Virus record (IMG/VR): IMGVR_UViG_3300048927_000317
Location: 1-34,323 of that record
Length of the DNA stretch: 34,323 nt
From: a virus
Direction: 5' to 3' (one strand)
Under the pieces are notes generated by a model that worked only from the letters and a program-made list of their open reading frames with translations, searched no databases and was not told the origin of the DNA. Below are positions 3,540 through 15,744 of this stretch, piece after piece. Made by a program: the position numbers and the translations under genes. Every line of letters starts with the position of its first letter. The stretch's first letter is position 1.

Positions 3540-4853
3540 TTAAGCGGCGCTGAAAGCCGCGTGGTTATTGGCTTGCATAGAATCAGGCTGTGCGGCCTGT
3601 CTCGCCTCTGTCTCGGCGTGGCGGCCGTGCAACTGGTCGAATCCACGGGCATCTAGCCAGGCGTGCCAGCGCTCCAGGGCGGCCCGCTTCTGTGCCTTTA
3701 AGGTGGTGTGGATATAAACGGCGCTGACGCCTTGCAGCTTGTGATTGAGCAAGAATTCCCCGACCAGGTGATCCACGCCCAGGTCTGCCCAGCACGTCCG
3801 AGCCACCTTGCGCAGGTCGTGACTGGTCCACTCACCACCGGTCAAGGGTTTGAATAGATCGTCGGCTTGTTTGGGATTGAGGGGTTTGCCGTTGCTGCCC
3901 GGGAACAAGTACGCCCCGTCATATCCGGCGGCTTTTTGTTGCTCAAGGTAAAGGCGAAGAAAGGCGCAAATTTGATCGGTCAGCGGGACCACCATTTCCG
4001 CGCGGGTCTTGGCATCCGTCGACGGAATAAACCACTCCCGATCCTCAAAATTCAGGTTCTTGATTTTGGTCAGTCGGGTTTCGCCGATACGCGTGCCGTG
4101 GGCCAGCATCATCACCGCCAGGACAACGGCTTTCGGGATCTTGCCTTGCCAGGTCGTCACATAGGCCAGCAGACCGGCCAGCACACCGCGCACCTGGTCA
4201 GGACGAATAGCCCCGGGCTTGGCCTCGATTCGGGTTTCAATGAAGTCGGGAAAGGTGAACTCTGCCAGCGGGTTGACGGTGATCAGTTTCAGCTTGTGCG
4301 CTTGCTTGAAGGCACCGGTCAGCACACCAAACACCTGGCGCACGTAGGACAGCGCATACCGCTCTTGCAAGGGCCAGATCAGTTTTTCATCAAGGCACGA
4401 TTGATTCAGCTCAGTCAGGCGCACAGACGCCAGGTTCGGCCACAGGTGACACTTGATCACCGACCGGATGGCGTCTTTGCGTTTGGTTGATTTGTTGCGT
4501 TCGCGCTTGCTGCGTTCGCGGTACCAGGTCAGCAACTCCCCGACCGTTTGCCAGCCATCCACCGCGACCGAAGCAGACGGATCAATCGCCAGCTTCTGGA
4601 GGATCTTGGGAAGCGCGTCCATGAAGTCGGCAGCGCCCAAGGCGGGCCAGTTGGCAATCTTGCTGTAGGGGTTTACCTGGCCTTTGCTGTAGGTGACGAC
4701 GTACCAACTGCCCGAAGCTCGGGAAGCGTGGTAGCGGAATACGACGGGACGGCGCGAATCGCGCAATTGTTTGACGGTGGGGTCTGCGGCATGCCGCTTA
4801 ATCGCCGCGTCTGACAGCGCAACACTGACGGTTCCGCTTTCGGGTTTTGACAT
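3540..4853 (-). CDS. int: Tyrosine recombinase (phage integrase)
   Basis: A site-specific recombinase of 437 residues. The catalytic set is readable: Arg255 (HGTRIGE), Lys282 (DAKTR), His345 and Arg348 (TSHDLRK), His371 (LLNHKL) and Tyr380 (AVYIHTT). The N-terminal part (about 1-90) resembles the Arm-DNA-binding domain of P4-type integrases, and the core-binding domain follows (about 100-190). Length fits the P4-type group. Such enzymes integrate or excise prophages, but this genome also carries RepA and a partition pair. The enzyme may therefore allow an integrated state or resolve plasmid multimers. No att site or tRNA fragment is recognisable nearby. An 8 bp-period array lies 129 bases upstream of the start. 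Confidence 0.92.
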   Translation of the reverse strand: MSKPESGTVSVALSDAAIKRHAADPTVKQLRDSRRPVVFRYHASRASGSWYVVTYSKGQVNPYSKIANWPALGAADFMDALPKILQKLAIDPSASVAVDGWQTVGELLTWYRERSKRERNKSTKRKDAIRSVIKCHLWPNLASVRLTELNQSCLDEKLIWPLQERYALSYVRQVFGVLTGAFKQAHKLKLITVNPLAEFTFPDFIETRIEAKPGAIRPDQVRGVLAGLLAYVTTWQGKIPKAVVLAVMMLAHGTRIGETRLTKIKNLNFEDREWFIPSTDAKTRAEMVVPLTDQICAFLRLYLEQQKAAGYDGAYLFPGSNGKPLNPKQADDLFKPLTGGEWTSHDLRKVARTCWADLGVDHLVGEFLLNHKLQGVSAVYIHTTLKAQKRAALERWHAWLDARGFDQLHGRHAETEARQAAQPDSMQANNHAAFSAA

Positions 4854-4981: not shown

Positions 4982-5009
4982 TCGTTAATTCGTTATTTCG
5001 TTAAATCGT
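4982..5009. repeat. TCGT array A (4 boxes, 8 bp period)
   Basis: TCGT boxes start at 4982, 4990, 4998 and 5006, separated by 4 bp AT-rich spacers. The array overlaps the 3' end of the 4993-5202 gene and lies upstream of the integrase start at 4853. It matches the arrays around parA and so may place the integrase under the same DNA-binding protein. Confidence 0.85.
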
Positions 5010-5202
5010 TATTAGTATCGAGCGGATCGCAAGCAGCATCAAAGGCGCGGCCCGCTTGCTCCAGGCGCCGAGCGGTACGACCGAACGGCGCCGCGTTACC
5101 CTCGGCACTGGCGGGCAACGTCGCCACGTCGACCACAGCGTCGATAGGCACGACGGCGAGCGCCAAGACGGATTTTGAAAGATTGACCAGCGTTCCCAGC
5201 AT
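4993..5202 (-). CDS. Small hypothetical protein with hydrophobic N-terminus
   Basis: ATG 5202 is preferred because GAGGTG lies six bases upstream. It gives 69 residues. The N-terminal half is moderately hydrophobic (LGTLVNLSKSVLALAVVPID, residues 2-21, continuing AVVDVATLPAS), and the C-terminal half is charged and Ala-rich. It could be membrane-associated. Similar small proteins occur in proteobacterial prophages and plasmids, but I know no function. Its last codons are written by repeat array A. Confidence 0.65.
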   Translation of the reverse strand: MLGTLVNLSKSVLALAVVPIDAVVDVATLPASAEGNAAPFGRTARRLEQAGRAFDAACDPLDTNNDLTK

Positions 5203-5215
5203 GGCGACACCTCGA

Positions 5216-5449
5216 CTATTTGACGGGTTGGATCTTGTTGCGCAGCTCATTGGCGCGGCGCACTACCTGGTAATGCTCGGCCGTCTTCTCGGCGGTCGGA
5301 CCTGGCATGGCCAGGTAGTCGGTCAACACCAGGACAAAGGCGCGCAGCTCCTTGGTGTGTTCGATCAGCTCCATCGCTGGCTTGAACTCGGCCTGATGTT
5401 TGTATGGACCGAAATAGTTCTCGACCTTGGCCAGTTGTTCGTGGGTCAT
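5216..5449 (-). CDS. Hypothetical protein, 77 residues
   Basis: Not recognised. It is a mostly helical, soluble, charged small protein with no cysteines and no membrane segment. Its ATG overlaps the stop of the Q-like gene by four bases (ATGA), so the two are translated together. Co-expression with the antiterminator suggests an early role. Confidence 0.7.
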   Translation of the reverse strand: MTHEQLAKVENYFGPYKHQAEFKPAMELIEHTKELRAFVLVLTDYLAMPGPTAEKTAEHYQVVRRANELRNKIQPVK

Positions 5450-5865
5450 TCGCTTAACCTCAGTTTGTCTGCAATCAGTTCGCGCGCCTCGGACAAGCGA
5501 CGCATGTAGGTGCGGCGACTGATCCCCAAGGCGTGGGCCTTTTGGTACTGGTCAAGGCCGCATGGGTCGTAGTCAGTGATTCCGCGCCGCTCGGCGACCT
5601 GGAAGTCAGCGGCGCCGTATTCAAAGCGCAACACATCAGCGCGCATCGGGTCGGCGGCGTACATCGACAGCACGGCGGATTCAATGGCCCATTCGATGCC
5701 ATCGGCCGGCCCGCTACCGGTTCCAGATCCGCCGAAAAACAGCTCGCCCTTGTTGTCGATCAGTTTGGCCAGCATCGAGCGACCACCCGGCGCGGTGCCT
5801 CCTGGAAGGCTCCAACGCGCCCAAAGCTCAAGCCCGATATCCAGGTCGGTTTTGCGTCTGGCCAT
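5446..5865 (-). CDS. Q-like late antitermination protein
   Basis: The 139-residue protein (ATG 5865, AAGG upstream) starts KTDLDIGLELWARWSL, close to the ERWGAWAA opening of Q proteins of the 933W group. It continues with IEWAIESAVLSM and the C-terminal helix-turn-helix-like YQKAHALGISRRTYMRRLSEARELI. That order (aromatic start, central helix, C-terminal HTH) fits the Phage_antitermQ family. The genome gives a target: a late promoter closely followed by a strong terminator (2347-2232). The protein is therefore inferred to switch on late transcription. It could instead be an ArpU-like activator; both roles control late genes. The in-frame extension to 5913 is rejected because it overlaps the upstream gene. 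Confidence 0.65.
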   Translation of the reverse strand: MARRKTDLDIGLELWARWSLPGGTAPGGRSMLAKLIDNKGELFFGGSGTGSGPADGIEWAIESAVLSMYAADPMRADVLRFEYGAADFQVAERRGITDYDPCGLDQYQKAHALGISRRTYMRRLSEARELIADKLRLSE

Positions 5866-5876
5866 GGCTGGGCGCC

Positions 5877-6332
5877 TTACTGAGTGGCCAGCGCGTCGAC
5901 GGCTGCCGCGCACAGTGGCGCGATGCTGCGCAGTCGGGGCAGGACCAGTTCCGACAACGCATCGAGCGGGGCCAGGACGTGGCGAAAACTGTCAGGCTTG
6001 GCGGTGACATTAAAATCGCCCTGGCGCATCACCACCTGGTCAGACGGCGCGCCGTAGACGTGCCAGATAACGCCGCCATGGCCACGGACTACGCGGGCCT
6101 CTTCTTCTGTCAGGCAGTGAACAATCACCAGGCCGCCGGCCGGGTTTTTGGTGTTTTTGTCCAGGGCAGTGTCAAGCGCGTCACGCAAGATCATCGAGCG
6201 ACGTAGCGGGCGATTGATGCCTGGGGCCGTCACTGCAAAGGCGACCAGTGATTCTTTGCCCGACTCGACCAGGCGGTCAGCAATGGCGGTGCGCTCGGCT
6301 TCAGTGCCGCCGGAAAGTGCGATCAATAACAA
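5877..6332 (-). CDS. Nucleotide-kinase-like protein with degenerate P-loop
   Basis: A 151-residue protein with a probable TTG start at 6332 and GAGGGG six bases upstream. The opening LLIALSGGTEAERTAIADRL is laid out like the beta-strand/P-loop/helix of phage deoxynucleotide monophosphate kinases, but the GxxxxGK[ST] residues are lost. The later part EEEARVVRGHGGVIWHVYG resembles their conserved EA...GG...V element. I infer a kinase-fold protein that may no longer bind ATP. Its place between a replication-type protein and Q suggests an early role. A catalytic function should not be assumed. Confidence 0.55.
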   Translation of the reverse strand: MLLIALSGGTEAERTAIADRLVESGKESLVAFAVTAPGINRPLRRSMILRDALDTALDKNTKNPAGGLVIVHCLTEEEARVVRGHGGVIWHVYGAPSDQVVMRQGDFNVTAKPDSFRHVLAPLDALSELVLPRLRSIAPLCAAAVDALATQ

Positions 6333-6353
6333 GGTGTTCCCCTCGGCCAGCCT

Positions 6354-6920
6354 TCAGCGGCGGGCGCGTACAATTTTGGTATTGCGCACAGTCTTCAAAA
6401 ATTCATGCAAGGCGGCCGGGCTGGGCGCGGTGTTCGCCTGGCGGGCAAGCTCTACGGCCTGCTCCATTTCTTCTATGGTCACGTTGGTGGCACACCACCG
6501 ACGGAACAAATCCTGGTTGTACGGGTCTTTCCCATGCAGCGGCGGCAAGCTCAGTTCGAACTCGAACCAACGCCGCCACTGATCGGCGATTCTCGGAAGC
6601 TCCAAAGCGGGCTGGAACTCGGCGAAGTTTGTAAGTGTTACGCGTAACGGCGCGCCGGGTTCGGCATCCTGCTCTTGCGATAGCCAGCCATCTTGGGCCA
6701 GGTAGTCAAGGAACAGGTTCAGCTCCAGCGGGCCAGCCTGCAAAGCGTCGCGCCAATCGCTGGCCGGCAGCTCGATCACGCCGGAATCCCGCGAAGGACT
6801 GGCGGCGAACTGCTCCAACAACTTGACCAGCCGCGCGAAGCCAGCCGGGCCAAAACGTTGCTCGACCTTGAGAACGATCGGCAGCGCGGAAAAGTGGGGA
6901 GGGAGGTTAAGCGCCGGCAT
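6354..6920 (-). CDS. Putative replication-associated protein
   Basis: The 188-residue protein opens with a short segment (LKVEQRFGPAGFARLVKLLEQFA, read around residues 16-40) like the winged-helix start of phage replisome-organiser proteins. The C-terminal half (about 125-180) is helical and resembles DnaT/helicase-loader tails. It begins inside the 3' end of the Cro-like gene (14 base overlap) in the early operon, where lambdoid phages keep O/P functions. If correct, the phage may have a lytic replication route distinct from RepA. The assignment is tentative. A GTTAC palindrome lies inside at 6636-6649. Confidence 0.5.
   Translation of the reverse strand: MPALNLPPHFSALPIVLKVEQRFGPAGFARLVKLLEQFAASPSRDSGVIELPASDWRDALQAGPLELNLFLDYLAQDGWLSQEQDAEPGAPLRVTLTNFAEFQPALELPRIADQWRRWFEFELSLPPLHGKDPYNQDLFRRWCATNVTIEEMEQAVELARQANTAPSPAALHEFLKTVRNTKIVRARR
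6636..6649. repeat. GTTAC palindrome site 3
   Basis: TGTTACGCGTAACG, with perfect GTTAC/GTAAC arms, lies inside the replication-associated gene. Confidence 0.75.
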
Positions 6921-7170
6921 TTTTCACCCGGTTTTTCATCAGTTCCAAGGCGAAGGGGGCATAGATGCCGTTCCAATCCACGGCACCGCCGGACTTGGAC
7001 AGGATGTTCATCCCCGCCGCAAAAGACGGTCGCCGCTCCTTGCGGTACCAGGAGGAAACCGTGCGCGGTTCTTCTTCCAACAGACTGGCAACAGCGGCCA
7101 ATGCGGCTAGGCTCAGCTTGCCCGCCGACGTGACCCCGCCGATGCTGTCAATCCACTGATTCAGTTCCAC
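6907..7170 (-). CDS. Cro-like helix-turn-helix regulator
   Basis: An 87-residue protein transcribed away from the repressor gene. The N-terminal part has the YdaS/Cro-type pattern AGKLSLAALAAVASLLEEEPRTVSSWYRKERRP split over residues 16-48, with PRTVSSWYRK as recognition helix. First early gene, opposite the CI-like repressor: the usual position of Cro. It is expected to bind one or more of the 17 bp operators at 7185-7264 and favour lytic growth. Confidence 0.75.
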   Translation of the reverse strand: MELNQWIDSIGGVTSAGKLSLAALAAVASLLEEEPRTVSSWYRKERRPSFAAGMNILSKSGGAVDWNGIYAPFALELMKNRVKNAGA

Positions 7171-7184
7171 GAATAGAGACCCCT

Positions 7185-7201
7185 TTACACGAATAGTGTA
7201 A
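7185..7201. promoter_or_regulatory. Repressor operator O1
   Basis: TTACAC-GAATA-GTGTAA is a perfect 17 bp inverted repeat just upstream of the Cro-like gene. It overlaps the -10 and start site of the proposed leftward early promoter, so bound repressor would block it. Confidence 0.8.
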
Positions 7202-7230
7202 GTCTATTTCGACTGGATCCCATTACTCAA
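7201..7230 (-). promoter_or_regulatory. Candidate early leftward promoter
   Basis: On the minus strand, TTGAGT (7230-7225), an 18-base spacer and TAGACT (7206-7201) give a moderate sigma70 promoter for the Cro-like early operon. Operator O1 directly adjoins the -10 box. Confidence 0.5.
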
Positions 7231-7247
7231 GGTTTTTTTTCCCGTAT

Positions 7248-7264
7248 CTACACTTAAAGTGTAT
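7248..7264. promoter_or_regulatory. Repressor operator O2
   Basis: CTACAC-TTAAA-GTGTAT repeats the O1 pattern with the same 5 bp centre. It lies 47 bp further toward the repressor gene in the divergent region, suitable for autoregulation. Confidence 0.75.
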
Positions 7265-7339
7265 ATTTCCTCGGGTTACGGATAATATCCATATATTGCC
7301 AAGGCGTGAAAACTCACGGCGCCGAATGAGAGATTGCGC

Positions 7340-8005
7340 ATGTCTGAATTAATGGAACTTGTGGCCAAACGGATTAGGCAGTGTCGCCAGGAAAAAGGCT
7401 GGACGCTGGAAGAAACGGCCGAGCGATTGGCTCAAGCCTCCGGCCAGCCCTTCGGTTACTCGCGTTTTTCCAACTGGGAACAAGCCTCACGCATGCCACC
7501 GACCGACATGGTGTTGCTGCTGGCCAAGGTCTTTGGAAAAACCCCGGCCTGGATCAATGGCTACACCGACACCGACAGCTTGAGCGCGGTCACGTCCGAC
7601 TATGTGACGGCCAACCCTACCAGCATCCAGACCAAAGCCGGGGCGATTCCACTCACCCAGGCCACGGACAGTACGGCGTTTAGCCTGAGTTACATCGAGG
7701 CGCGCGGCATGAACCGCAATAAGCTGCTGTGCATCAAACAGATTGATGCCAGCATGGCCCCGATGATCGTAGAGGGTGACGAATTGCTGCTCGATGGCGA
7801 GCAAACCACCGTGCGCGGTGCCGACCTGTTCGGCATCATCGTTGCCGGCAACATCTGGATTCGATGGATATGCCCCGAGCTCGACGGCACTTTCACTGTG
7901 AAAGCCGGCGATAGCACGCAATACCCTGATAGCAAAATGACACCTGAAGACCTGAATAAGCTGGACATTGTGGGCCGCGTCGTCCGCATATCCCACGACA
8001 GGTAA
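7340..8005 (+). CDS. CI-like repressor with altered S24 protease dyad
   Basis: The 221-residue protein (ATG 7340, GAGAG upstream) has an N-terminal HTH (about 5-60, QEKGWTLEETAERLAQASG then FSNWEQASRMP). A C-terminal S24 peptidase-like domain follows (about 120-215) with Ser138 in DASMAPMIVEGDELL. In LexA and UmuD the catalytic lysine lies 37 residues after the serine. Here that position is Arg175 (NIWIRW). An Ala100-Gly101 pair sits in the linker. It should repress the early promoter through the TTACAC operators. Loss of the lysine suggests RecA-stimulated self-cleavage may fail, so induction may use an antirepressor. The domain would still mediate dimer contacts. Confidence 0.88.
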   Translation: MSELMELVAKRIRQCRQEKGWTLEETAERLAQASGQPFGYSRFSNWEQASRMPPTDMVLLLAKVFGKTPAWINGYTDTDSLSAVTSDYVTANPTSIQTKAGAIPLTQATDSTAFSLSYIEARGMNRNKLLCIKQIDASMAPMIVEGDELLLDGEQTTVRGADLFGIIVAGNIWIRWICPELDGTFTVKAGDSTQYPDSKMTPEDLNKLDIVGRVVRISHDR

Positions 8006-8012
8006 TAAAACC

Positions 8013-8036
8013 GCCCTTAGTCTAAGGGCTTTTTTA
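8013..8036 (+). terminator. Terminator after the repressor gene
   Basis: Arms GCCCTTA (8013-8019) and TAAGGGC (8023-8029), a three-base loop and six T residues form a strong rho-independent terminator eight bases after the repressor stop. Confidence 0.9.
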
Positions 8037-8066
8037 TTGCTCGGATTTACACTTTGCGTGTAACAT
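8037..8066 (+). promoter_or_regulatory. Candidate promoter for the 8098-8801 operon, containing operator O3
   Basis: TTGCTC (8037-8042), 18 bases, then TAACAT (8061-8066). Operator O3 fills most of the spacer, so repressor would silence it. Both boxes are imperfect. Confidence 0.45.
8047..8063. promoter_or_regulatory. Repressor operator O3
   Basis: TTACAC-TTTGC-GTGTAA repeats O1 with identical arms and spacing, 35 bases before the next gene. It links the downstream regulator genes to the same repressor. Confidence 0.78.
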
Positions 8067-8097
8067 GCCACGCAACTTAGGAAAGGCAGGTTCCCTC

Positions 8098-8352
8098 ATG
8101 CAGCAAGGCAGCGAAGTTTCGAAACACACCCCTCATTCCGTCACCCCGATCAGCGGCGCCGTAGCCATTCAGCGCGCGCGCATTGTCGCGGTGAAAGAAG
8201 TGTCGTCATTGTTGAGCACCATGCAGCACATGGCGCTGTATTGCATCGATCAGAACCACGTCACCCTGGACCATATGGAAACCATGTCTGACACGTTGAA
8301 CGTTCTACAACGCCAGGTTGCCGCGCTGCACCTGGAACTTGCCAGCAACTAA
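8098..8352 (+). CDS. Small hypothetical protein after operator O3
   Basis: ATG 8098 is chosen because GCAGG lies seven bases upstream; an earlier ATG at 8065 overlaps the operator and lacks such a site. The 84 residues form a soluble, probably all-helical protein (AIQRARIVAVKEVSSLLSTM; LDHMETMSDTLNVLQRQVAA). No family is recognised. It is co-transcribed with a LuxR-type HTH gene and probably under repressor control, so a lysogeny/maintenance role is possible. Confidence 0.65.
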   Translation: MQQGSEVSKHTPHSVTPISGAVAIQRARIVAVKEVSSLLSTMQHMALYCIDQNHVTLDHMETMSDTLNVLQRQVAALHLELASN

Positions 8353-8384
8353 TCCCCTCCCCTTTTCGCAAGGAAGCGTCCCCC

Positions 8385-8801
8385 ATGAATGCCCGCGTTC
8401 AGATCCACGGCGAGGAAGTCATCGGCTACCCAGGTCAAAACCTGTCTGACAGCGAACTGTTCGTCCTGGTCAAGACGGCCGAAGGCTTCCCGACGCCGGT
8501 TATTGCTGACGAATTACAGCTCGATGATGCAGGCATGCGTCTGGTCGAGCGCAGCATTCTTAGCAAGCTCGGCGCCAAGAACAAGGCGCACATGATCACG
8601 CGCGGTTTCACCCTGGGCGTGCTGGCCCCGCAAGCGCTGTGCCTAATGCTCTCCCTGATCGCCGTCATGGAAGTGGACACCGATTTCAACCGGCCGCGCT
8701 CCCAGCGCCGTAGCCGTACGCTCACCGAATTTTCCCGCACCGTGCGCACCTCCCCGGCGTCGGCCGGCGGCCCGCCTTCCCGGCACATTCTCGCCGGCTG
8801 A
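8385..8801 (+). CDS. LuxR-type (GerE-like) HTH regulator
   Basis: The first 75 residues match a LuxR C-terminal DNA-binding domain: LSDSELFVLVKTAEGFPTPV, IADELQLDDAGMRLVERSIL and SKLGAKNKAHMITRGFTLGV are the usual helices. There is no sensor domain. The 138-residue protein ends in a basic, proline/serine-rich tail. It lies 32 bases after the 8098 gene. Array B begins six bases after its stop. Its target is unknown; it is one candidate for binding the dispersed GTTAC palindromes. Confidence 0.78.
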   Translation: MNARVQIHGEEVIGYPGQNLSDSELFVLVKTAEGFPTPVIADELQLDDAGMRLVERSILSKLGAKNKAHMITRGFTLGVLAPQALCLMLSLIAVMEVDTDFNRPRSQRRSRTLTEFSRTVRTSPASAGGPPSRHILAG

Positions 8802-8806
8802 TCCTT

Positions 8807-8834
8807 TCGTTATTTCGTTAAATCGTTAATTCGT
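8807..8834. repeat. TCGT array B (4 boxes, 8 bp period)
   Basis: TCGT boxes start at 8807, 8815, 8823 and 8831, with AT-rich 4 bp spacers. The array lies just upstream of the -35 box of the parA promoter. It faces array C in inverted orientation. Confidence 0.88.
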
Positions 8835-8841
8835 TATTTTC

Positions 8842-8870
8842 TTGATCCTCGGCACGGGGCGGCCTATACT
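8842..8870 (+). promoter_or_regulatory. Promoter of the partition operon
   Basis: TTGATC (8842-8847), 17 bases and TATACT (8865-8870) form a good sigma70 promoter. It is flanked on both sides by box arrays B and C. The usual scheme of autorepression by the centromere-binding protein fits this layout. Confidence 0.75.
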
Positions 8871-8882
8871 CGCCTGGCGTTA

Positions 8883-8910
8883 ACGAATTGACGAAATGAC
8901 GAATTAACGA
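8883..8910. repeat. TCGT array C (4 boxes, inverted, 8 bp period)
   Basis: ACGA boxes (TCGT on the other strand) start at 8883, 8891, 8899 and 8907. They cover the expected transcription start and leader of parA. Such tetramer arrays are typical operators of ParG-type proteins. Confidence 0.88.
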
Positions 8911-8924
8911 AAAGGATTCTTACC

Positions 8925-9572
8925 GTGGCATTGATCGTAGGCTTCGCAACTCAAAAGGGTGGCCCTGGCAAATCCACCGACGCACGCGGCACCGGGGTTG
9001 GCTTCGCGCAAAATGATTGGTCGGTAAAGATTGCCGACTTCGACCTAAACCAATCCACCAGCACCATCTGGCAGCAGCGCCGTTTGCAGCGCGGCCATCA
9101 ACCGCAAATCGACGTCGAGCAGTTCGGATCGGTCGCGCACGCGCTGGCCCAGGCTGACAATTACGACGTGATGATCTTCGACGGCGCACCGCGCGCCAGT
9201 AAGGACACCGCCGAAATGGCCGAAGCCTGCGACCTCCTGGTCATCCCGACCGGCCTGTCGCTAGACGACCTGGACCCGGCGGTCAAACTGGCTGACGCGT
9301 TACACCACAAGCACGGCATTCCCGTTGAGCGCATTGCGTTCGCGTTGAACCATGTGGGTGACAGCTTGGCCGAACTGGAAGAAGCCCAAGAGTATTTGAG
9401 CCAAAAGCCTTACCACGTCCTGGACGGTCACTTGCCGCAGAAAGTCAGCTACAGCCGCGCCATGGATATTGGTCTGTCGGTGATCGAAGTGTCACACAAG
9501 GGGTTGCGCGCTCAGGCCGAACGCCTGATTTCCTCGATCATCCAGCGCGCTGTTGCGCTACACTCTAAATAA
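8925..9572 (+). CDS. parA: ParA-type partition ATPase (ParF-like, type Ib size)
   Basis: A deviant Walker-type ATPase that separates low-copy replicons. GTG 8925 follows AAAGG. The 215 residues lack an N-terminal HTH, as in ParF. The signature lysine and P-loop read KGGPGKST (K11, K16), the A' region IADFDLNQST (D38/D40) and Walker B DVMIFDGAP (D86). Proline replaces the near-universal valine in KGGVGKST, and the next residues (DARGTG) also differ from the usual LARALA helix. The ATPase may be tuned differently or weakened. A ribbon-helix-helix gene follows 35 bases later across array D. Confidence 0.9.
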   Translation: MALIVGFATQKGGPGKSTDARGTGVGFAQNDWSVKIADFDLNQSTSTIWQQRRLQRGHQPQIDVEQFGSVAHALAQADNYDVMIFDGAPRASKDTAEMAEACDLLVIPTGLSLDDLDPAVKLADALHHKHGIPVERIAFALNHVGDSLAELEEAQEYLSQKPYHVLDGHLPQKVSYSRAMDIGLSVIEVSHKGLRAQAERLISSIIQRAVALHSK

Positions 9573-9591
9573 CGAATTGACGAATTAACGA
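9572..9591. repeat. TCGT array D (3 boxes, inverted)
   Basis: ACGA boxes start at 9572, 9580 and 9588 in the short gap between parA and its partner gene. The first overlaps the parA stop region. Confidence 0.85.
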
Positions 9592-9606
9592 ATAGGGAAT
9601 GCTGCA

Positions 9607-9867
9607 ATGACTGTCGAAGCCCCAAAACCACCGCGCAAGAATTCCACCAAAGGCAATGCACCGGCCTCCCCTATCGCAGCCGCTGCGCTGGTCAAGGCCG
9701 GACACACACACCAGGCGGCGCCGGAAGACCTGGTAACGGCCAATTTCAAAGTGGACGCCCAGTTCAAGCATGATCTAAAGATGTTCGCGGCCATGCACAA
9801 AATGAGCATGGTCGACGTGTTGCGCCAAGGCTTTGCCCTACTCAAGGCGTCCAAGCAGGCGAAGTGA
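9607..9867 (+). CDS. Ribbon-helix-helix centromere-binding protein (ParG-like)
   Basis: An 86-residue protein. A flexible basic N-terminus (1-42, rich in P/K/A) precedes a compact RHH domain: beta strand LVTANFKVD (42-50), helix QFKHDLKMFAAMHK and helix MVDVLRQGFALLK. ParG of TP228 has the same plan, a mobile tail that stimulates ParF and an RHH fold that binds tetramer boxes with 8 bp period. The genome holds seven arrays with exactly that period, three of them around this operon. The role as partition adaptor and repressor is thus inferred from fold, position and sites together. It also makes this the best candidate reader of the distant arrays. Confidence 0.78.
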   Translation: MTVEAPKPPRKNSTKGNAPASPIAAAALVKAGHTHQAAPEDLVTANFKVDAQFKHDLKMFAAMHKMSMVDVLRQGFALLKASKQAK

Positions 9868-9884
9868 TTGCCCGCGACACGCAA

Positions 9885-9911
9885 AGCCCCGCACTCGGCG
9901 GGGCTTTTTTA
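9885..9911 (+). terminator. Terminator of the partition operon
   Basis: Arms GCCCCGC (9886-9892) and GCGGGGC (9898-9904) with a five-base loop are followed by six T residues. It ends rightward transcription and lies between converging gene sets. Confidence 0.9.
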
Positions 9912-9917
9912 TTCCTG

Positions 9918-9931
9918 CGTGACGGGTAACG
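9918..9931. repeat. GTTAC palindrome site 4
   Basis: CGTGACGGGTAACG lies directly after the stop of the 9935-10177 gene, between converging operons. Confidence 0.7.
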
Positions 9932-9934
9932 CTA

Positions 9935-10177
9935 TTATTGCTCGACAGCAAACAACCGAATGCCGACCGCATCTGCAAACTTGGCCAAGGTGTCCAGGCT
10001 CGCCCAGGTGCGCACAGGTTCGCGCTTCGAGCGCACGGCCATCCAATTGGAGCCAGGCCCGCCCAGGCGAAAGTAGAACGCCCAGCGCTCACCGTGGCGA
10101 CTGGCCTTGGCCTCGCGCACCGCGCCATTCCTGGCCAGGTCCAGCAACTGCCCCTCATCGTAGCCTTTGCGCTTCAT
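9935..10177 (-). CDS. Small plasmid-type protein, possibly ParC-like
   Basis: The 80-residue protein has the pattern KGYDEGQLLDLARNGAVREA, then WAFYFRLGG, then REPVRTWASLDTLAKFADAVGI. This resembles small partition-associated (ParC-type) proteins of proteobacterial plasmids, which carry the same R-x-P-x-R-T-x-x-S-L-D-T segment. I recall the family only by pattern, and its function is poorly known. It is the last gene of a leftward operon of ATGA-coupled genes and ends beside the partition operon. Confidence 0.6.
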   Translation of the reverse strand: MKRKGYDEGQLLDLARNGAVREAKASRHGERWAFYFRLGGPGSNWMAVRSKREPVRTWASLDTLAKFADAVGIRLFAVEQ

Positions 10178-10515
10178 TCCTTCCCCGGCAGATCAGACCG
10201 AAAGGTCAGCGACGACGGCGCCAGGTAACGCACCTGGCCGCTGCGCTCCTGGCCATCCGGCAATCTCACGCGAACCCAAACCGCCGCCTGTGCCGCCGGC
10301 AGCGCGTGCGGAAAGCTCAGCTCAAACAACCCGGGCATGGTTTCGCCCAGGGTGACGCTGACGTCGGCAGAAGGCTCGGCACCGTCCTCCTGGACAAACG
10401 ACAGTCGCGCCGGCCCCACATATGAATAAGCCACTCGATTCTCCCACCAGGTCACCGACCAATAACCGGGAAGCGTACCAGATGGCCGGCGCGTTACGGA
10501 TAACGCTTCGATCAT
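10174..10515 (-). CDS. Hypothetical protein, 113 residues
   Basis: Not recognised. Probably a beta-rich soluble protein (YWSVTWWENRVAYSYVG; ADVSVTLGETMPGLFELSFP; AVWVRVRLPDGQ). There is no signal peptide or membrane segment. It overlaps both neighbours by ATGA junctions, so the three genes 10787 to 9935 form one translational unit. A GTTAC palindrome lies 10 bases inside the gene. Confidence 0.68.
   Translation of the reverse strand: MIEALSVTRRPSGTLPGYWSVTWWENRVAYSYVGPARLSFVQEDGAEPSADVSVTLGETMPGLFELSFPHALPAAQAAVWVRVRLPDGQERSGQVRYLAPSSLTFRSDLPGKE
10492..10505. repeat. GTTAC palindrome site 5
   Basis: CGTTACGGATAACG (one centre-proximal mismatch) is 10 bases inside the 10174-10515 gene. Confidence 0.65.
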
Positions 10516-10787
10516 TGCTCGTAGCCGGCCAGATAACCCGGCTCGGCGCTGGCCAGCAGCAGGCGCAAAGTAGTGGGGCCGTCATCACTCGACAAGGGAT
10601 CATCCAGTGTTTCGGCCGAAACCGCCGCTACGTCGTCCAGGGTATAGGTGCCAGTGCCGGCGATGGCATTGGCCAGCGTCACAGCCTGGGCCTCATCCTT
10701 GGCCGCGTAAATATCATCGTCACCGACCCAGAAGGCCGACAGGAACGTGACCGGCGTGTCGGCCGCAGTATCGTGATTCGATTGCAT
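10512..10787 (-). CDS. Hypothetical protein, 91 residues, acidic
   Basis: Not recognised. ATG 10787 is chosen because AAGGAG lies nine bases upstream. The protein is acidic (DDDIYAAKDEAQ; AETLDDPLSSDDG) and soluble. Its upstream region shares a long leader with the gene starting at 11158: palindrome GTGACGCGTCAC, then CCTA, then AAGGAGATTCAC before ATG. Confidence 0.66.
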   Translation of the reverse strand: MQSNHDTAADTPVTFLSAFWVGDDDIYAAKDEAQAVTLANAIAGTGTYTLDDVAAVSAETLDDPLSSDDGPTTLRLLLASAEPGYLAGYEQ

Positions 10788-10801
10788 GGGGTGAATCTCC
10801 T

Positions 10802-11158
10802 TCACTCAGTAGGTTGTGACGCGTCACTGGCCGCCGCCGGCAGCGGCAACAAGTCGTAATTGCAGGTGTAATCCCAGTCACCCCAATACTTGCCGTCGCG
10901 GTCGCAGCACCCGGCGTCCAGCTCGCTCTCGTCGGGGCGATCCTCGCGCTGTGTCTGCCCGCAAATGTGGGTCAGCTCCCCGGCCACCACCTGATCGACC
11001 ATTTCATCCCAGCCGTCGTCAAGGTAGGTCTGTATGACCATTTCGGCGCCCTGGTCGCGATCTTCGGCCGTGCGGTAGTAGGTGAAATCGCTGTCGTTCG
11101 GATCGAAGACAAAATACCGAAACTCGGCGTCGGGGCTATGGCGGACTTCGTAAGTCAT
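10802..11158 (-). CDS. Hypothetical acidic protein, 118 residues
   Basis: Not recognised. ATG 11158 follows AAGGAGATTCAC; the longer in-frame extension to 11296 is rejected because it overlaps the next gene and has no such site. The protein is acidic and aromatic (EFRYFVFDPNDSDFTYYRTA), with four cysteines in the C-terminal half. Charge and aromatic content resemble small phage proteins that mimic DNA or bind host factors, but this is speculation. Its stop region holds palindrome site 6. Confidence 0.65.
   Translation of the reverse strand: MTYEVRHSPDAEFRYFVFDPNDSDFTYYRTAEDRDQGAEMVIQTYLDDGWDEMVDQVVAGELTHICGQTQREDRPDESELDAGCCDRDGKYWGDWDYTCNYDLLPLPAAASDASQPTE
10815..10828. repeat. GTTAC palindrome site 6
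   Basis: TGTGACGCGTCACT, with GTGAC/GTCAC arms, is 28 bases upstream of the start at 10787. Confidence 0.72.
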
Positions 11159-11186
11159 GCGTGTGAATCTCCTTATCTCGATAGGT

Positions 11187-11200
11187 TGTGACGCGTCACG
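11187..11200. repeat. GTTAC palindrome site 7
   Basis: TGTGACGCGTCACG is 29 bases upstream of the start at 11158. The same spacing and surrounding leader occur at site 6. Confidence 0.72.
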
Positions 11201-11438
11201 CCGCGTCGGTTTGCGCCGGCATCGGCCGCACACGGCCCGCTTCGACGTAGCGCACGCGCTGGATATGTTCGCGGCCGCGCCAATGGCGATCGCCAAACAC
11301 CAGCACTTTCACGCGGTCACCGGGCATGGCCTTGAGGACGTGGCACGGCATGGCGTAGGTCTTCGTCCAGCGGCAGACGTGCTGACAGATCAGTTGATGC
11401 GTGGCATTGGCGGCGGTCAGTTCGGGCGGCGCGGTCAT
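11196..11438 (-). CDS. Hypothetical protein, 80 residues
   Basis: Not recognised. ATG 11438 has AAGGAAGG upstream, which decides it over the longer frame to 11507. The protein is basic with three cysteines or more (LICQHVCRW; AMPCHVL) and a beta-rich centre (GDRVKVLVFGDRHWRG). It could be a small nucleic-acid-binding protein, but no family is evident. Confidence 0.63.
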   Translation of the reverse strand: MTAPPELTAANATHQLICQHVCRWTKTYAMPCHVLKAMPGDRVKVLVFGDRHWRGREHIQRVRYVEAGRVRPMPAQTDAA

Positions 11439-11534
11439 GGCGTCCTTCCTTTGCGAGTCAGTGGCGGGTATTGCGTAAAACCAGATGATAGCAAAGTGGG
11501 CACCCACTTATGCGTAAAGTGGGAACCACGGACG

Positions 11535-11579
11535 TAAAAAAAGACCCCCGCCGGTCGCCTGACTGGTGGGGGTCGTTTT
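11535..11579 (-). terminator. Terminator in the cargo region (both directions possible)
   Basis: Arms GACCCCC (11543-11549) and GGGGGTC (11568-11574) enclose a partly paired 18-base loop. Leftward, eight T residues follow (11542-11535); rightward there are four T. It separates the 11612-13146 genes from the 9935-11438 genes. Confidence 0.8.
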
Positions 11580-11589
11580 ACATAAGCGG

Positions 11590-11603
11590 CGTTATTCGTA
11601 ACG
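11590..11603. repeat. GTTAC palindrome site 8
   Basis: CGTTATTCGTAACG, one arm position changed, lies just after the stop at 11612 and before the terminator. Confidence 0.6.
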
Positions 11604-11611
11604 CGGCGGAC

Positions 11612-11848
11612 TCACTCGGCGCCGTGGATTCGCTCATACGCCGCATGCGGATCATTGGCCGACAGCTCGGCCAGCTCGGGGGCCAGCGCACGCAACACGT
11701 TCCACGCCTGAGCCACAGCCTTGTGATGCTCGCGGAAATACTGGATCGACACCAGTTCTTCCAGGGCGGACTGTAGCCGGGCGTCGGTCAGCTCCGGCAC
11801 TTCGGCGCGCGGCACGTACTCGATGCCGTCAATCAGGACAGAAGGCAT
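11612..11848 (-). CDS. Hypothetical protein, 78 residues
   Basis: Not recognised. ATG 11848 has AAGGA nine bases upstream; the upstream extension overlaps the next gene in another frame and is rejected. The start PSVLIDGIEYVPRAEVPELT looks like a small beta hairpin, and a helical tail follows (QSALEELVSIQYFREHHKAV). The opening resembles short prophage proteins found near terminators, without known role. Confidence 0.65.
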   Translation of the reverse strand: MPSVLIDGIEYVPRAEVPELTDARLQSALEELVSIQYFREHHKAVAQAWNVLRALAPELAELSANDPHAAYERIHGAE

Positions 11849-11862
11849 GGTGGGGGTTCCTT

Positions 11863-12342
11863 TCAGTCGTAAATAGTGGGATTGCTGGGCCATGTATTTT
11901 CGCGCAGGGCGCACACGCCACAGCCAGAACCTGGTCGATCCATCCAGCCGCCGTAAGGCTGTATGCCGTCGTGATTGCACACCGGGCACGGTGCGCACGA
12001 CGTTACGCAATGATGCAGGCGATAGGCACGGTCGCGGCCGGCTTCCCAGGTTTCGCCTGGCGCGGCCAGCGCCGCCACTTGGCCAATGGTCAGGCCGGAC
12101 CAATCGTCAAACAAGACGTCACCGGCGGCCATCGCCGGATGCGTCAATGCCTCCAGATCGTCGGCCAGGTCGTCGCTATACACGTCGGACGCCTCGGCCT
12201 GTAGCCGGAGTTCGCCTTGTAAACGGCGGCGCGCCTGCTCCCAGCTCTCACCCGGCCGCGCGCCGGCCCGCACCTGGGCATCGGTCAGAGGCTCGCTGCC
12301 CTCGCCCGCGCCGCTCGGGTCGCGCTCGTTATTGTTCGTCAT
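11863..12342 (-). CDS. Hypothetical protein with C-terminal CxxC pairs
   Basis: Not recognised. The 159-residue protein has a charged N-terminus with a repeated pattern (LTDAQVRAGARPGESWEQAR at 19-38 and LTIGQVAALAAPGETWEAGR near 84-103), suggesting an internal duplication. The C-terminal part has CAPCPVC and CGVC, which could bind zinc. Palindrome site 9 lies 20 bases upstream of its start. Confidence 0.65.
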   Translation of the reverse strand: MTNNNERDPSGAGEGSEPLTDAQVRAGARPGESWEQARRRLQGELRLQAEASDVYSDDLADDLEALTHPAMAAGDVLFDDWSGLTIGQVAALAAPGETWEAGRDRAYRLHHCVTSCAPCPVCNHDGIQPYGGWMDRPGSGCGVCALRENTWPSNPTIYD

Positions 12343-12346
12343 CAGC

Positions 12347-12898
12347 TCATACCTTGCCCGGCGTTACAGTAACGCCGCCCAACTCACCCGGCAACGGACG
12401 ATAATCGGTCGACTGACCCGCCGCGCGCAGACGGTTTTCCCATGTCTTGATAGCGGCATAAGCCTTGTTGCGCTCACTTTCGAGCAGGGCGTTTTCTTGC
12501 TCCAGCGCCTCTATCTGGCGGCGCAGTTCGCGCGGACTCAGCGGGTCTTTTTCCATCTTCATGGGCGGCCCGCCCAGGTCTTCGGCCAACTGTTGCAGCT
12601 CTGCCAGGCAACCAATCAGGCGCTGGTTTTCAGTCTGCAACCCTTCGCGCTGCTGCCGATAATGCTCAGCCAAGGCATGGGCCTCGGACAACTTGCCCTC
12701 CGGCGTACCTGGTGCAGGGTTCTGCCTGAGCTTGCGTAGCGTCTCCAGCAATTCGCGCTCGGCGGCGCCGACGTACATTGGCTTCAAGCCGGCCGCCTTG
12801 CGGTCGCGGCGCAACTTGCGTTGCCGTTCAGCACCGTCCAGCGGCTGGCTGCAAGCCTCTATCAGATCAAGGGTTCCGGGGTCGTTGGGATCGATCAT
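12347..12898 (-). CDS. Coiled-coil protein, KfrA-like in outline
   Basis: The 183-residue protein (ATG 12898, GGAGAG upstream) has a short basic N-terminus (AERQRKLRRDRKAAGLKPMY) and a long heptad-rich helix, about residues 65-165 (HYRQQREGLQTENQRLIGCL; LRRQIEALEQENALLESERN). Plasmid KfrA proteins have a DNA-binding head and long alpha-helical tail, but the head here is not a clear match. A structural or partition-helper role is only suggested by the shape and the plasmid context. Confidence 0.62.
   Translation of the reverse strand: MIDPNDPGTLDLIEACSQPLDGAERQRKLRRDRKAAGLKPMYVGAAERELLETLRKLRQNPAPGTPEGKLSEAHALAEHYRQQREGLQTENQRLIGCLAELQQLAEDLGGPPMKMEKDPLSPRELRRQIEALEQENALLESERNKAYAAIKTWENRLRAAGQSTDYRPLPGELGGVTVTPGKV
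12362..12374. repeat. GTTAC palindrome site 9
   Basis: CGTTACAGTAACG, with a 1 bp centre, lies in the last codons of the coiled-coil gene and 20 bases before the start at 12342. Confidence 0.7.
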
Positions 12899-12917
12899 TA
12901 CCGCGCTCTCCGTGATA

Positions 12918-12936
12918 CCCCGGCTCAAGGCCGGGG
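12918..12936 (-). other. GC-rich leader hairpin before the coiled-coil gene
   Basis: Perfect 7 bp arms CCCCGGC (12918-12924) and GCCGGGG (12930-12936) with a five-base loop lie 20 bases upstream of ATG 12898. There is no T run, so it is not a simple terminator. It could affect translation or mRNA stability. Confidence 0.5.
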
Positions 12937-12945
12937 CGGCAGTCC

Positions 12946-13146
12946 TTACAGGCCGATTTCATCCATCAGCATATCCAGCGCGTCGTCGCCTTCGCGGTTC
13001 TGGTAGGCCGTCAGCAACGCCGCGCGGGCCATGTTCTCAGGCGGCGGCAGCACGGCGCCGCCGATGAAACGGACAGCCTCAATCAAGCGGGAAGTTGGGA
13101 GTTGATTGGCCACGGCCTGCATGGCGGATTGTTGCGCGGTCGTCAT
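12946..13146 (-). CDS. Hypothetical protein, 66 residues
   Basis: Not recognised. ATG 13146 has GGAGCA eight bases upstream. Small helical protein (TSRLIEAVRFIGGAVLPPPE; DALDMLMDEIGL). A promoter-like TTGACG-17-TACAGT in the upstream region has its -35 inside array E, so the gene is probably controlled by the array-binding protein. Confidence 0.62.
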   Translation of the reverse strand: MTTAQQSAMQAVANQLPTSRLIEAVRFIGGAVLPPPENMARAALLTAYQNREGDDALDMLMDEIGL

Positions 13147-13196
13147 CGGGGTCTGCTCCGGTAGCGGCCTTGGCGGTGTGCCCGGCCTTGGAGCAG

Positions 13197-13225
13197 ACTG
13201 TAAAACCATTTCGTTAATTCGTCAA
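13197..13225 (-). promoter_or_regulatory. Promoter embedded in array E
   Basis: On the minus strand, TTGACG (13225-13220), 17 bases and TACAGT (13202-13197). The -35 is part of the repeat array, so any protein filling the array would block RNA polymerase. Confidence 0.55.
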
Positions 13226-13246
13226 TTCGTTAATTCGTTAATTCGT
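13211..13246. repeat. TCGT array E (5 boxes, 8 bp period)
   Basis: TCGT boxes start at 13211, 13219, 13227, 13235 and 13243. It is the longest array. It lies between two cargo genes and supplies the last codons and stop of the 13230-13643 gene. Confidence 0.9.
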
Positions 13247-13643
13247 CCGTGCGTATGTCTGGCTCAGCCAGACCGGCGTAGATGCTCAGCAGTCGCCACA
13301 CCGCATACGGCACCTCTCCTTCGCCGCCGGCCCACTTGCGGATCTTCTTTTGTGAGACGCCAACCAATAGCCCGGCCTCACTTCCCGTCAGGCCGGTGAC
13401 GCGCAACAGCTCACGGAATTCCTCCACGGTCGGCGGCACCCATCCCGGCGTAAACGCATCAAACAATCCGGCGCGATCCAGGGCCAGCTCCTGACGCACC
13501 TGGTCGGCCGTCATCGAGCGCGGAGGGTCGCCGGGCACTTCCAATTTTTCAGCGTCCAGGCGCAGCGCTGCGCGCATCGCCTCCCACATATCCGACGCTT
13601 CGAATTCTTCGCGTGACCCGTCACGCCGCAACAAAGCAAACAT
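13230..13643 (-). CDS. Xre/antitoxin-like HTH protein
   Basis: The 137-residue protein has a C-terminal helix-turn-helix: VEEFRELLRVTGLTGSEAGL, then LVGVSQKKIRKWAGGEGEVP, about residues 73-115. The N-terminal half is a separate small domain (FALLRRDGSREEFEASDMWE). The overall shape, a domain plus XRE-like HTH with KW and P, resembles phage and antitoxin-type regulators. No toxin gene is evident next to it. Array F and a perfect hairpin precede it, and palindrome site 10 lies 18 bases inside the start. Confidence 0.68.
   Translation of the reverse strand: MFALLRRDGSREEFEASDMWEAMRAALRLDAEKLEVPGDPPRSMTADQVRQELALDRAGLFDAFTPGWVPPTVEEFRELLRVTGLTGSEAGLLVGVSQKKIRKWAGGEGEVPYAVWRLLSIYAGLAEPDIRTDELTN
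13612..13625. repeat. GTTAC palindrome site 10
   Basis: CGTGACCCGTCACG, symmetric arms, lies 18 bases inside the HTH gene. Confidence 0.72.
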
Positions 13644-13662
13644 CCCTCAGCCTCCAATGCTA

Positions 13663-13685
13663 AACCGCCGGCAAGGCCGGCGGTT
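13663..13685 (-). other. Perfect leader hairpin before the HTH gene
   Basis: Ten-base arms AACCGCCGGC (13663-13672) and GCCGGCGGTT (13676-13685) with a three-base loop lie between array F and the start at 13643. No T run follows, so its role is more likely in mRNA control than termination. Confidence 0.55.
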
Positions 13686-13686
13686 G

Positions 13687-13714
13687 TCGTTATTTCGTTA
13701 AATCGTTATTTCGT
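13687..13714. repeat. TCGT array F (4 boxes, 8 bp period)
   Basis: TCGT boxes start at 13687, 13695, 13703 and 13711; a TCGA follows at 13718 out of phase. It includes the stop of the 13706-14020 gene and lies 44 bases before the start at 13643. Confidence 0.88.
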
Positions 13715-14020
13715 TATTCGATCAGGGCAGTGTCGCACCTTGACCGATGCGCCGCCATGCCAACACGTCCAGCCGGACGGCGAAGCCAGCAGCCCAACGC
13801 GGCCGTAATCCTCGCACAGATAGTAGCCTTGAGCCTCTAGCCAGATACCGATTTCAACCAACTGCACACGGTCGACCTCGGTTTGCTTGCGAAATTCCGG
13901 CACGGCCAGTACCAGGCAATCGCGTTGTGATCCGCCGGCAATGCGCACATTGAGTTGTATTGCGTAACGCTCAAAGAAAGCCGCTTTCAAAGCGACCACA
14001 TGGGGGGCTTGTTTGGTCAT
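13706..14020 (-). CDS. Hypothetical protein, 104 residues
   Basis: Not recognised. ATG 14020 is favoured over 14083, since the extension would be written through the array-side leader. The centre has a beta/alpha pattern (DCLVLAVPEFRK; LVEIGIWLEAQGYYLCEDYG). It has array G upstream and array F at its end, so it forms a separate cassette. The leader shares the doubled CGGCCTTG element with the 13146 gene. Confidence 0.62.
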   Translation of the reverse strand: MTKQAPHVVALKAAFFERYAIQLNVRIAGGSQRDCLVLAVPEFRKQTEVDRVQLVEIGIWLEAQGYYLCEDYGRVGLLASPSGWTCWHGGASVKVRHCPDRITK

Positions 14021-14070
14021 CGGTTTTATCCCGGAGTGCGGCCTTGACGTAATGCCCGGCCTTGGGATGA

Positions 14071-14099
14071 ACCTTATTCGCAATTCGTTAATTCGTCAA
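14071..14099 (-). promoter_or_regulatory. Promoter-like element in array G
   Basis: On the minus strand, TTGACG (14099-14094), 17 bases and TAAGGT (14076-14071). The -35 lies in the array as in array E, but the -10 is weak. Confidence 0.4.
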
Positions 14100-14112
14100 T
14101 TCGTTATTTCGT
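14085..14112. repeat. TCGT array G (4 boxes, 8 bp period)
   Basis: TCGT boxes start at 14085, 14093, 14101 and 14109. The array lies between the cargo genes and the gene-free region downstream of repA, and 65 bases before the start at 14020. Confidence 0.88.
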
Positions 14113-14758: not shown

Positions 14759-15634
14759 TTATGAGGGGGAATAGCGCTGATTGAATATCTTGATGCGCTG
14801 GGACACGGTGAGCGACTGCGTGTCGGGGTCGGCACAGAAGTCGACCCAGGCGGCCGCACGGGCGCGCGCTGCGTTCTCGTCATTCTGAGCCTGGCTGTGC
14901 GCTTCTTGGCGCTTGCGCTTGGCCTGGGCGGCGCGGTGGGCATGCTGACGCACCTCACGGTCGGCCGCATCCTTGATCAGGGTTTCAGTGCGTTGCTTGC
15001 CGACAGCGGCCAGCGCCTGGTTGCGCTTGGCCTTCTTTTGCGTGCGCGCAACAGCGAGCTGATAGCCAAGACCCAACTGAATAAAGAAGCGCGGGCGGAC
15101 GTTGATCGTTACCCGGGTGATCCAGTAACGGCCGTTGTGGCAGATCCGGCGCACCTTGCGATAGACCATCTTGGCCGCTTCCAGAGCGCCCATTACGCGG
15201 GAAACCGTCCACTCTTGCAGGCTGGTGTCTTCGGCGAGGCCGCGTTGACGGTTGAGGCGGAATTCTCCGGCCTTGTCCAGGTAGCCCATCACCAGGGTGG
15301 CAATGTCCAGGCGCGCAAGTACAGGTTCAATCAGTTCGGCGAGCGAGTCCCAACGCTGTTGGCTGGTCCGGTAGCCGCTGGCCTGGAAGGTGTCGAAGTC
15401 GCGCAACCACTTGCACTGACGGTCTTTGGCTTCTTCGCGCACGCGCTCGGCGGCGGTCCCGAGAAAGGTGCGGCGCTGCGCATCGGTCAGGGCGCGCGGT
15501 CGACGCGGCTGGGCCGAACGATCGACACGCTTTAAACGTTTGACGGGGGCTTTGGCCGGGACCACCGACAGGCCATTGTAGGCCGCCGACGCCGGGGAAC
15601 TAACCTCGTGGAGGATGGTGGCTGCGCGCTTCAT
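14759..15634 (-). CDS. repA: RepA-like plasmid replication initiator (IncFII-like)
   Basis: A 291-residue initiator. ATG 15634 overlaps the stop of a leader ORF (ATGA), which decides the start. The middle (about 80-180) matches the winged-helix region of RepA_C/IncFII proteins: LNRQRGLAEDTSLQEWTVSR with VMGALEAAKMVY, then YWITRVTINVRPRFF. The tail is a long basic helix (TQKKAKRNQALAAV; RQHAHRAAQAKRKRQEAHSQ) and ends RIKIFNQRYSPS, like the R-N-R-N-Y-S-R-L end of R1 RepA. It should open the origin lying downstream and act preferentially in cis. Confidence in a plasmid-type initiator is good; exact incompatibility group is not assignable. Confidence 0.75.
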   Translation of the reverse strand: MKRAATILHEVSSPASAAYNGLSVVPAKAPVKRLKRVDRSAQPRRPRALTDAQRRTFLGTAAERVREEAKDRQCKWLRDFDTFQASGYRTSQQRWDSLAELIEPVLARLDIATLVMGYLDKAGEFRLNRQRGLAEDTSLQEWTVSRVMGALEAAKMVYRKVRRICHNGRYWITRVTINVRPRFFIQLGLGYQLAVARTQKKAKRNQALAAVGKQRTETLIKDAADREVRQHAHRAAQAKRKRQEAHSQAQNDENAARARAAAWVDFCADPDTQSLTVSQRIKIFNQRYSPS

Positions 15635-15744
15635 TGCACACCACCGACAGCCAGGGCCAGGCGCTGAGCGCGGGCCAGGGGCTGCAAATCTATACGCCCC
15701 CGCATAAGACCGGGGCGGCCTTCTACCGAGGCTTCGCCAATCAT
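15631..15744 (-). CDS. RepA leader peptide (Tap-like), 37 codons
   Basis: Starts at ATG 15744 with AGGGAAG six bases upstream, a better site than that of repA. It begins M-I-G-E-A-S-V-E and ends A-V-G-G-V-Q. Its TGA overlaps the repA start as ATGA. In R1 and relatives, translation of a leader peptide of this kind is needed for repA translation and is blocked by antisense RNA. The peptide sequence itself probably matters little. Confidence 0.7.
   Translation of the reverse strand: MIGEASVEGRPGLMRGRIDLQPLARAQRLALAVGGVQ

Follow-up and report, generated by a model that had tools for sequence, protein, structure and literature searches.

Seven short arrays of TCGT boxes are scattered over a phage-plasmid of 34,323 nucleotides (IMG/VR virus record IMGVR_UViG_3300048927_000317, here G000; the whole stretch, which is the complete record, is called the window). 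The arrays appear to be read by one protein, a ParG-like ribbon-helix-helix (RHH) centromere-binding protein encoded at 9607..9867 on the plus strand. We put the probability at roughly 70% that this protein would serve as the centromere protein and also as a global repressor, acting through the arrays at the par locus and through arrays E, G, F and A elsewhere on the element. Comparison with about 30 relatives points to a single sorting protein as reader of all the arrays, which would then probably also switch the neighbouring genes off. The positions of the arrays, their conservation, their overlap with promoters at par, E and G, and the concerted change of boxes and protein are established at the level of sequence.

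The seven arrays comprise 28 TCGT boxes with an 8-bp period, and each lies exactly where a sequence-only reading of this DNA had placed it. Array A (4982..5009, plus strand, 4 boxes) lies 129 bp upstream of the integrase start, the integrase gene being on the minus strand. At the par locus, array B (8807..8834, plus strand, 4 boxes) is directly upstream of the par promoter, array C (8883..8910, minus strand, 4 boxes) has that promoter on one side and parA on the other, and array D (9572..9591, minus strand, 3 boxes) begins at the parA stop codon, at the junction between parA and the RHH gene. Arrays E (13211..13246, plus strand, 5 boxes), F (13687..13714, plus strand, 4 boxes) and G (14085..14112, plus strand, 4 boxes) are upstream of three consecutive minus-strand genes. 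The distances to the start codons first given for A, E, F and G (129, 65, 44 and 65 bp) were likewise correct. Read on the coding strand of the following gene, the box is ACGA for all arrays except B. The 3' ends of preceding open reading frames run into arrays A, E and F, which supply or adjoin their stop codons.

The three-box pattern gave 14 overlapping matches against 0.01 expected from dinucleotide shuffles (largest count in any shuffle, 1), and a chance or compositional artefact was rejected on these figures. TCGT pairs at a distance of 8 numbered 17 on the plus and 5 on the minus strand, and nearly all other distances were found 0-3 times, except for the multiples 16 and 24.

To assess conservation, IMG/VR was scanned with the RHH protein, with ParA, with the array itself and with the 13706 gene, which yielded about 20 relatives, most of them with par proteins 75-91% identical to those of the window. 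Slot counts include the window, and the denominator is the number of relatives keeping the gene at that junction. All such slots were filled, at the same gene junctions, for arrays G (16/16), E (12/12), F (16/16) and D (15/15). Within these four slots the boxes were 100% identical, as compared with 72-96% for the spacers and 51-82% for the next 20 bp, and the distance to the start codon varied by only 1-9 bp (64-65 bp at G and 62-66 bp at E). The expectation that related genomes would keep arrays at the same positions thus held for D, E, F and G, and a randomly spreading repeat family was rejected because the slots are conserved. In the scan with the 13706 protein, in which the arrays formed no part of the query, 15 of 15 close matches carried array G; around the gene of two distant relatives (51-52% identity) no array was seen in the DNA examined.

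Three of the array sites coincide with predicted promoters. The par promoter (8842..8870, plus strand, TTGATC-17-TATACT) is a good sigma-70-type promoter framed by the mutually inverted arrays B and C, and the same -35/-10 pair is present in nearly all close relatives. In arrays E and G a -35 hexamer, TTGACG, is built from the repeat itself, as had been proposed (13225-13220 and 14099-14094, respectively, both on the minus strand). Its partner at E is a -10 of sequence TACAGT (TAAAGT in relatives; 13197..13202, minus strand) and at G a -10 of sequence TAAGGT (14071..14076, minus strand), in both cases at a spacing of 17 bp. The pattern TTGACG-17-TA(A/C)AGT occurs in 12/12 E slots and TTGACG-17-TAAGGT in 16/16 close G slots. 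A scan for canonical promoters finds E and par and misses G, because the -10 TAAGGT matches fewer positions; the G promoter rests on its conservation. The predicted promoters at E and G overlap sites of the cognate type outside the par operon, which is the arrangement of a plasmid-wide regulator. Operators overlapping promoters are thus well supported by sequence at par, E and G. The extension of that idea to array F was not borne out, since no partner -10 was found there, unlike at E and G.

The genes following these arrays are a small gene of unknown function downstream of E (12946..13146, minus strand), an unknown gene downstream of G (g13706; 13706..14020, minus strand), which is 80-90% identical in relatives, and, downstream of F, a KorC-like helix-turn-helix (HTH) regulator (g13230; 13230..13643, minus strand) whose last codons lie inside array E. 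Array F itself lies between g13706 and g13230. The KorC-like product shares 32% identity over 116 amino acids with IncP KorC (E 7e-10), with weak HTH matches besides; it is also weakly related to the VC1465 Xer recombination activation family. A conserved hairpin or palindrome, CCGCCGGC-N4-GCCGGCGG, lies beside F (13663..13685, minus strand). The leaders of E (13146-13196) and G (14020-14071) carry a conserved direct repeat, CAAGGCCG, 18 bp apart and right after the -10, possibly sites of a second regulator. In the E leader (13146-13201) there is also an invariant inverted repeat, GTCTGCTCC/GGAGCAGAC, which in RNA would pair with the ribosome-binding site.

Array A lies upstream of a tyrosine integrase gene (3540..4853, minus strand; PF00589, 3.8e-17; phrog_1, 1.1e-44). 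Four relatives (G004, G013, G018 and G037) have the array in the same slot, 129-130 bp from int; in a further one (G029) an additional gene separates int from the array, which thereby keeps its place at the start of the operon. Four distant elements, from Edwardsiella, Aeromonas, P. aeruginosa and Aliivibrio, have an array 36-100 bp upstream of int. Arrays thus occur near int in distant phage-plasmids and are missing in ten relatives with another integrase, so that control of the integrase would be recurrent, not universal. The earlier proposal of an integrase array stands for one integrase type among the close relatives and for its recurrence in distant phage-plasmids; it fails for the ten relatives. 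The integrase leader (4854-4892) may form a largely conserved hairpin, GGCCTGGT/ACCAGGCC, directly before the start codon, and its loop would contain the ribosome-binding site. Upstream of the integrase gene, at 4870-4960, a block around GGGTAGGGGA is kept even where array A is displaced, as in G029, and is a candidate attachment site.

The strongest competing explanation takes the arrays as centromere units only, spread as anchoring sites for ParA-driven segregation or for plasmid pairing, with the overlap with promoters being incidental. In the RHH system of plasmid pSM19035, four contiguous repeats are the minimum for full activation of ParA (PMC9499535), a number reached by six of the seven arrays here (4-5 boxes each); several of them could therefore serve as centromeres. 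The lack of a promoter at F fits this explanation too, as do some arrays between tail genes in VPHZ6, Edwardsiella, Aeromonas and P. aeruginosa elements. It does not account for the constant spacing between TTGACG and a conserved -10 at E and G of all close relatives, for the arrays before the integrases of distant elements or for the framing of the par promoter by B and C, and we regard it as unlikely.

The predicted reader of all arrays is a protein of 86 amino acids with a recognition strand around residues 43-49 (VTANFKV). Its gene lies directly downstream of that for the partition ATPase ParA (8925..9572, plus strand; PF01656, 1.9e-8; phrog_164, 1.3e-30), whose PDB sequence matches include ParF of TP228 (4dzz). 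A small RHH gene directly downstream of a ParA-type ATPase gene, together with short boxes and AT-rich spacers upstream of parA (B and C), is the layout of type Ib partition loci, and it recurs in relatives from other phyla. The 9607 protein alone had no family match except an unnamed PHROG; six members of its family match PF23807 (RHH_10, best 4e-4), and the top PDB match of the family profile is ParG of TP228 (1p94), a weak one (E=0.37). A PDB search from a shallower alignment gave mostly chance matches plus two CopG-family chains. Two AlphaFold2 models, monomers in which the recognition strand has no partner, show both RHH helices, and over residues 41-86 almost all ranked structural matches are to RHH proteins, no single score being decisive. 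A Foldseek comparison with the PDB gave no significant E-value, and comparison of the monomer model with ParG 1p94 gave a Z of 3.2. The motif LNFKVPAEFKKDFK, the strand-helix signature of RHH proteins, is shared across distant members of the family. The product is an RHH protein, probably ParG-like (type Ib); it is not of the KorB family proper, being RHH-like and not of the HTH ParB type.

The box letters change together with this protein. The unit of parA, RHH gene and array is also found in Shewanella, Bacteroidota and cyanobacteria, with TCGT-type arrays at parA. In each genome with both kinds of array, the box class at par is the box class at the dispersed arrays, which gives a diagonal matrix, and four control tetramers gave none. 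The window-type strand NFKV goes with TCGT, and TCGT is found at both par and dispersed arrays in the window family, G022, Aeromonas, Edwardsiella and VPHZ6. The Aliivibrio phage has TCTT boxes and the strand NFKP, P. aeruginosa pPAC1.3b and Azotobacter have TCGC/TAGC boxes and DFNFKV, and G025 (NFSV) has CCGT mixed with TCGT at both par and dispersed arrays. GCGT is mixed with TCGT in Halomonas (NFRV) and occurs in Pseudomonas KBS0707 (NLRV). The joint change of the letters at par and dispersed arrays, following the recognition strand, points to one protein reading all arrays, and the earlier proposal of a single ParG-like RHH reader is thus well supported at this level.

Similar dispersed arrays, unannotated so far, were seen in Vibrio phage VPHZ6 (L187), Aliivibrio phage vB_Alvi_H905 (L193), Edwardsiella pEI-2083-2 (L194), an Aeromonas plasmid (L185/L186) and P. 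aeruginosa pPAC1.3b (L188/L195), and in several of these an array lies between the tape-measure gene and a neighbouring tail gene. Long TCGT arrays with the 8-bp period (7-17 boxes) also occur in the viral contigs G017 (39464-39651), G043 (13066-13165), G021, G023 and G040, where no par or RHH homologue was found.

Within the close relatives, a swap of the par genes is informative. In three genomes (G015, G018 and G020) these genes have been replaced by the NFKP type, and TCTT makes up 10/28 of the par boxes vs 1/154 in NFKV relatives (Fisher 1.5e-8, with boxes that are not independent). The E/F/G boxes of the three genomes remain pure TCGT, so that the change of protein is not yet matched at these arrays; either the new protein reads both box types, or the swap is recent, or a -35 constraint holds the boxes. 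A scan for swapped RHH genes found no further genomes. The unchanged boxes would also suit a second alternative, that another phage protein, the KorC-like g13230 or the CI-like repressor, reads E, F and G (and A) and leaves only B, C and D to the RHH protein; E, F and G do surround the KorC-like gene. Against this, in each divergent genome the dispersed arrays have boxes of the class found at its par locus. Moreover, tetramers repeated every 8 bp are the form of target that ParG-type proteins bind, and the usual site of a KorC-type HTH dimer is a single palindrome. We consider this alternative very improbable.

Under the reading that the RHH protein is both centromere protein and repressor, we infer binding, repression, integrase control and multiple centromeres, as follows. 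Dimers of the 9607 protein would bind the TCGT boxes side by side with the 8-bp period. The B/C pair around the par promoter would, together with D, be the protein's own operator, giving autogenous repression of par, and B, C and D would be the likeliest of the arrays to form the main centromere site for ParA action. At E and G the protein would occupy the -35 and block RNA polymerase, thereby repressing two conserved accessory promoters. At F it would be bound next to the KorC-like gene, probably as a roadblock or an extra anchor, and at A it would be bound before the integrase gene and limit the integrase operon. In the plasmid state the target genes would thus be kept low; when the protein is absent or diluted, as in fresh infection or over-replication, they would be expressed.

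Several observations weigh against this reading. TTGACG is conserved in array D with no partner -10; because of this the hexamer alone is no proof of a promoter, and the weight of the argument rests on the conserved spacing to the -10. No array was found within 420 bp of int in nine close relatives and in the distant G022, the integrases being 43-46% identical, and the -10 before the window's own integrase is a weak one that relatives do not keep. Neither the sequence match nor the structural match to ParG is significant by itself. What speaks most strongly against full coupling is that the E/F/G boxes are still TCGT in G015, G018 and G020 (TCTT 0/39). The changes of box class are few and were compared without a formal phylogenetic test. 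Finally, for those dispersed arrays of distant phages that sit between tail genes, the operator role is less obvious.

A wider reading, tentative and in our judgement rather doubtful, makes the RHH partition protein a master switch of the plasmid state across a widespread superfamily of phage-plasmids in Pseudomonas, Aeromonas, Edwardsiella, Vibrio and Aliivibrio. It would sense copy number through the arrays and tie the assembly of the centromere to the silencing of the integrase, of the KorC-like regulator and of accessory or tail genes. Recognition would follow a simple strand-to-box code in which residue 48 would correspond to base 1, residue 49 to base 3 and residues 44-45 to base 4.

The element is a phage-plasmid, with a virion gene set plus partition and replication genes on a circle, the replication gene being assigned by inference. 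A terminal direct repeat of 127 bp was found, and the circle is therefore probably complete, at about 34.2 kb. Its genes include those for a terminase, portal, capsid and contractile-tail proteins, the integrase, a CI-like repressor and ParA, and one for a candidate replication initiator; terminase, portal, capsid, sheath and tape measure are kept in relatives. Near-identical DNA was found in none of the named phages and in one plasmid with 3% coverage, and a scan of genome contigs gave no close relatives and 26 distant ones. The candidate initiator (RepA-like; 14759..15748, minus strand) shares 52% identity, over 65% of its length, with a gene on P. aeruginosa plasmid pPAC1.3b and had no convincing match in family searches; the candidate role derives from the phage-plasmid setting. 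Between array G and this gene, about 640 bp (14113-14758) without a clear gene, similar in length in relatives, form a candidate replication origin. The notion that the arrays are iterons or handcuffing sites of the RepA-like protein draws on G being about 650 bp from the end of its gene, with E, F and G clustered nearby, and is hardly credible in view of a period of 8 bp, not the usual 17-22 bp of iterons, and of arrays that lie within the parA operon and accompany parA-RHH pairs of other phyla.

The closest known system is ParF-ParG-parH of plasmid TP228, in which ParG binds parH and its operator (PMC7308502). It shares with the window a ParA-type ATPase with a small RHH protein that has a long N-terminal tail, a centromere in which AT-rich spacers separate tetramer boxes, and an operator at a promoter to which that protein binds as well (predicted binding in the window); the top PDB sequence matches of the window's proteins include ParF and, weakly, ParG. 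ParG is, however, described at one centromere and its own operator, whereas the window has four further conserved arrays at genes other than par. In pSM19035, the six sites of the omega protein cover the copS, delta and omega promoters (PMC9499535). This delta-omega-parS system is alike in its RHH partition protein, its six parS sites and its arrays, which overlap promoters both of par genes and of a copy-number gene; it differs in using 7-10 heptads, WATCACW, on a plasmid with no phage or integrase, as against tetramers with 4-bp spacers on a phage-plasmid.

KorB, the partition protein of the IncP-1 plasmids, is an HTH protein of the ParB type that binds single palindromes. IncP-1 plasmids have a plasmid-wide network of four global repressors, KorA, KorB, TrbA and KorC, with dispersed operators (PMC4889941; PMC2680271). 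The KorB/IncC system resembles the window in this network of dispersed operators, and the window has a KorC-like gene inside its E/F/G cluster; the difference lies in the reader, here an RHH protein predicted to act on tetramer arrays. SopB of phage-plasmid N15 is an HTH protein too, and its IR sites are single palindromes. The sop genes are said, in the title of a 2008 N15 paper, to facilitate late gene expression, and we know of no link to an integrase. N15 Sop is the partition system of a phage-plasmid with several sites, IR1-4 (PMC7205306), and is in this respect like the window's RHH protein, which differs from SopB in its predicted binding to arrays.

With ParG, omega, the IncP-1 network and N15 sop as precedents, the principle of a partition protein as a plasmid-wide regulator is already known (KorB, omega, N15 SopB). 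The RHH version with its reach to the integrase and its covarying box code appears to be new; no description of an RHH regulon reaching the integrase and accessory genes of phage-plasmids, with such a code, was found in the literature searched, which is weak evidence of absence. How a phage-plasmid chooses among plasmid life, integration and lysis is a largely open question in the field. Should the partition protein keep the integrase and further regulators low as well, a single circuit would govern both segregation and life-style. The naturally occurring pairs of protein strand and matching box are a ready data set for the rules of DNA recognition by RHH proteins, and the conserved arrays would allow similar regulons to be found in unannotated phage genomes.

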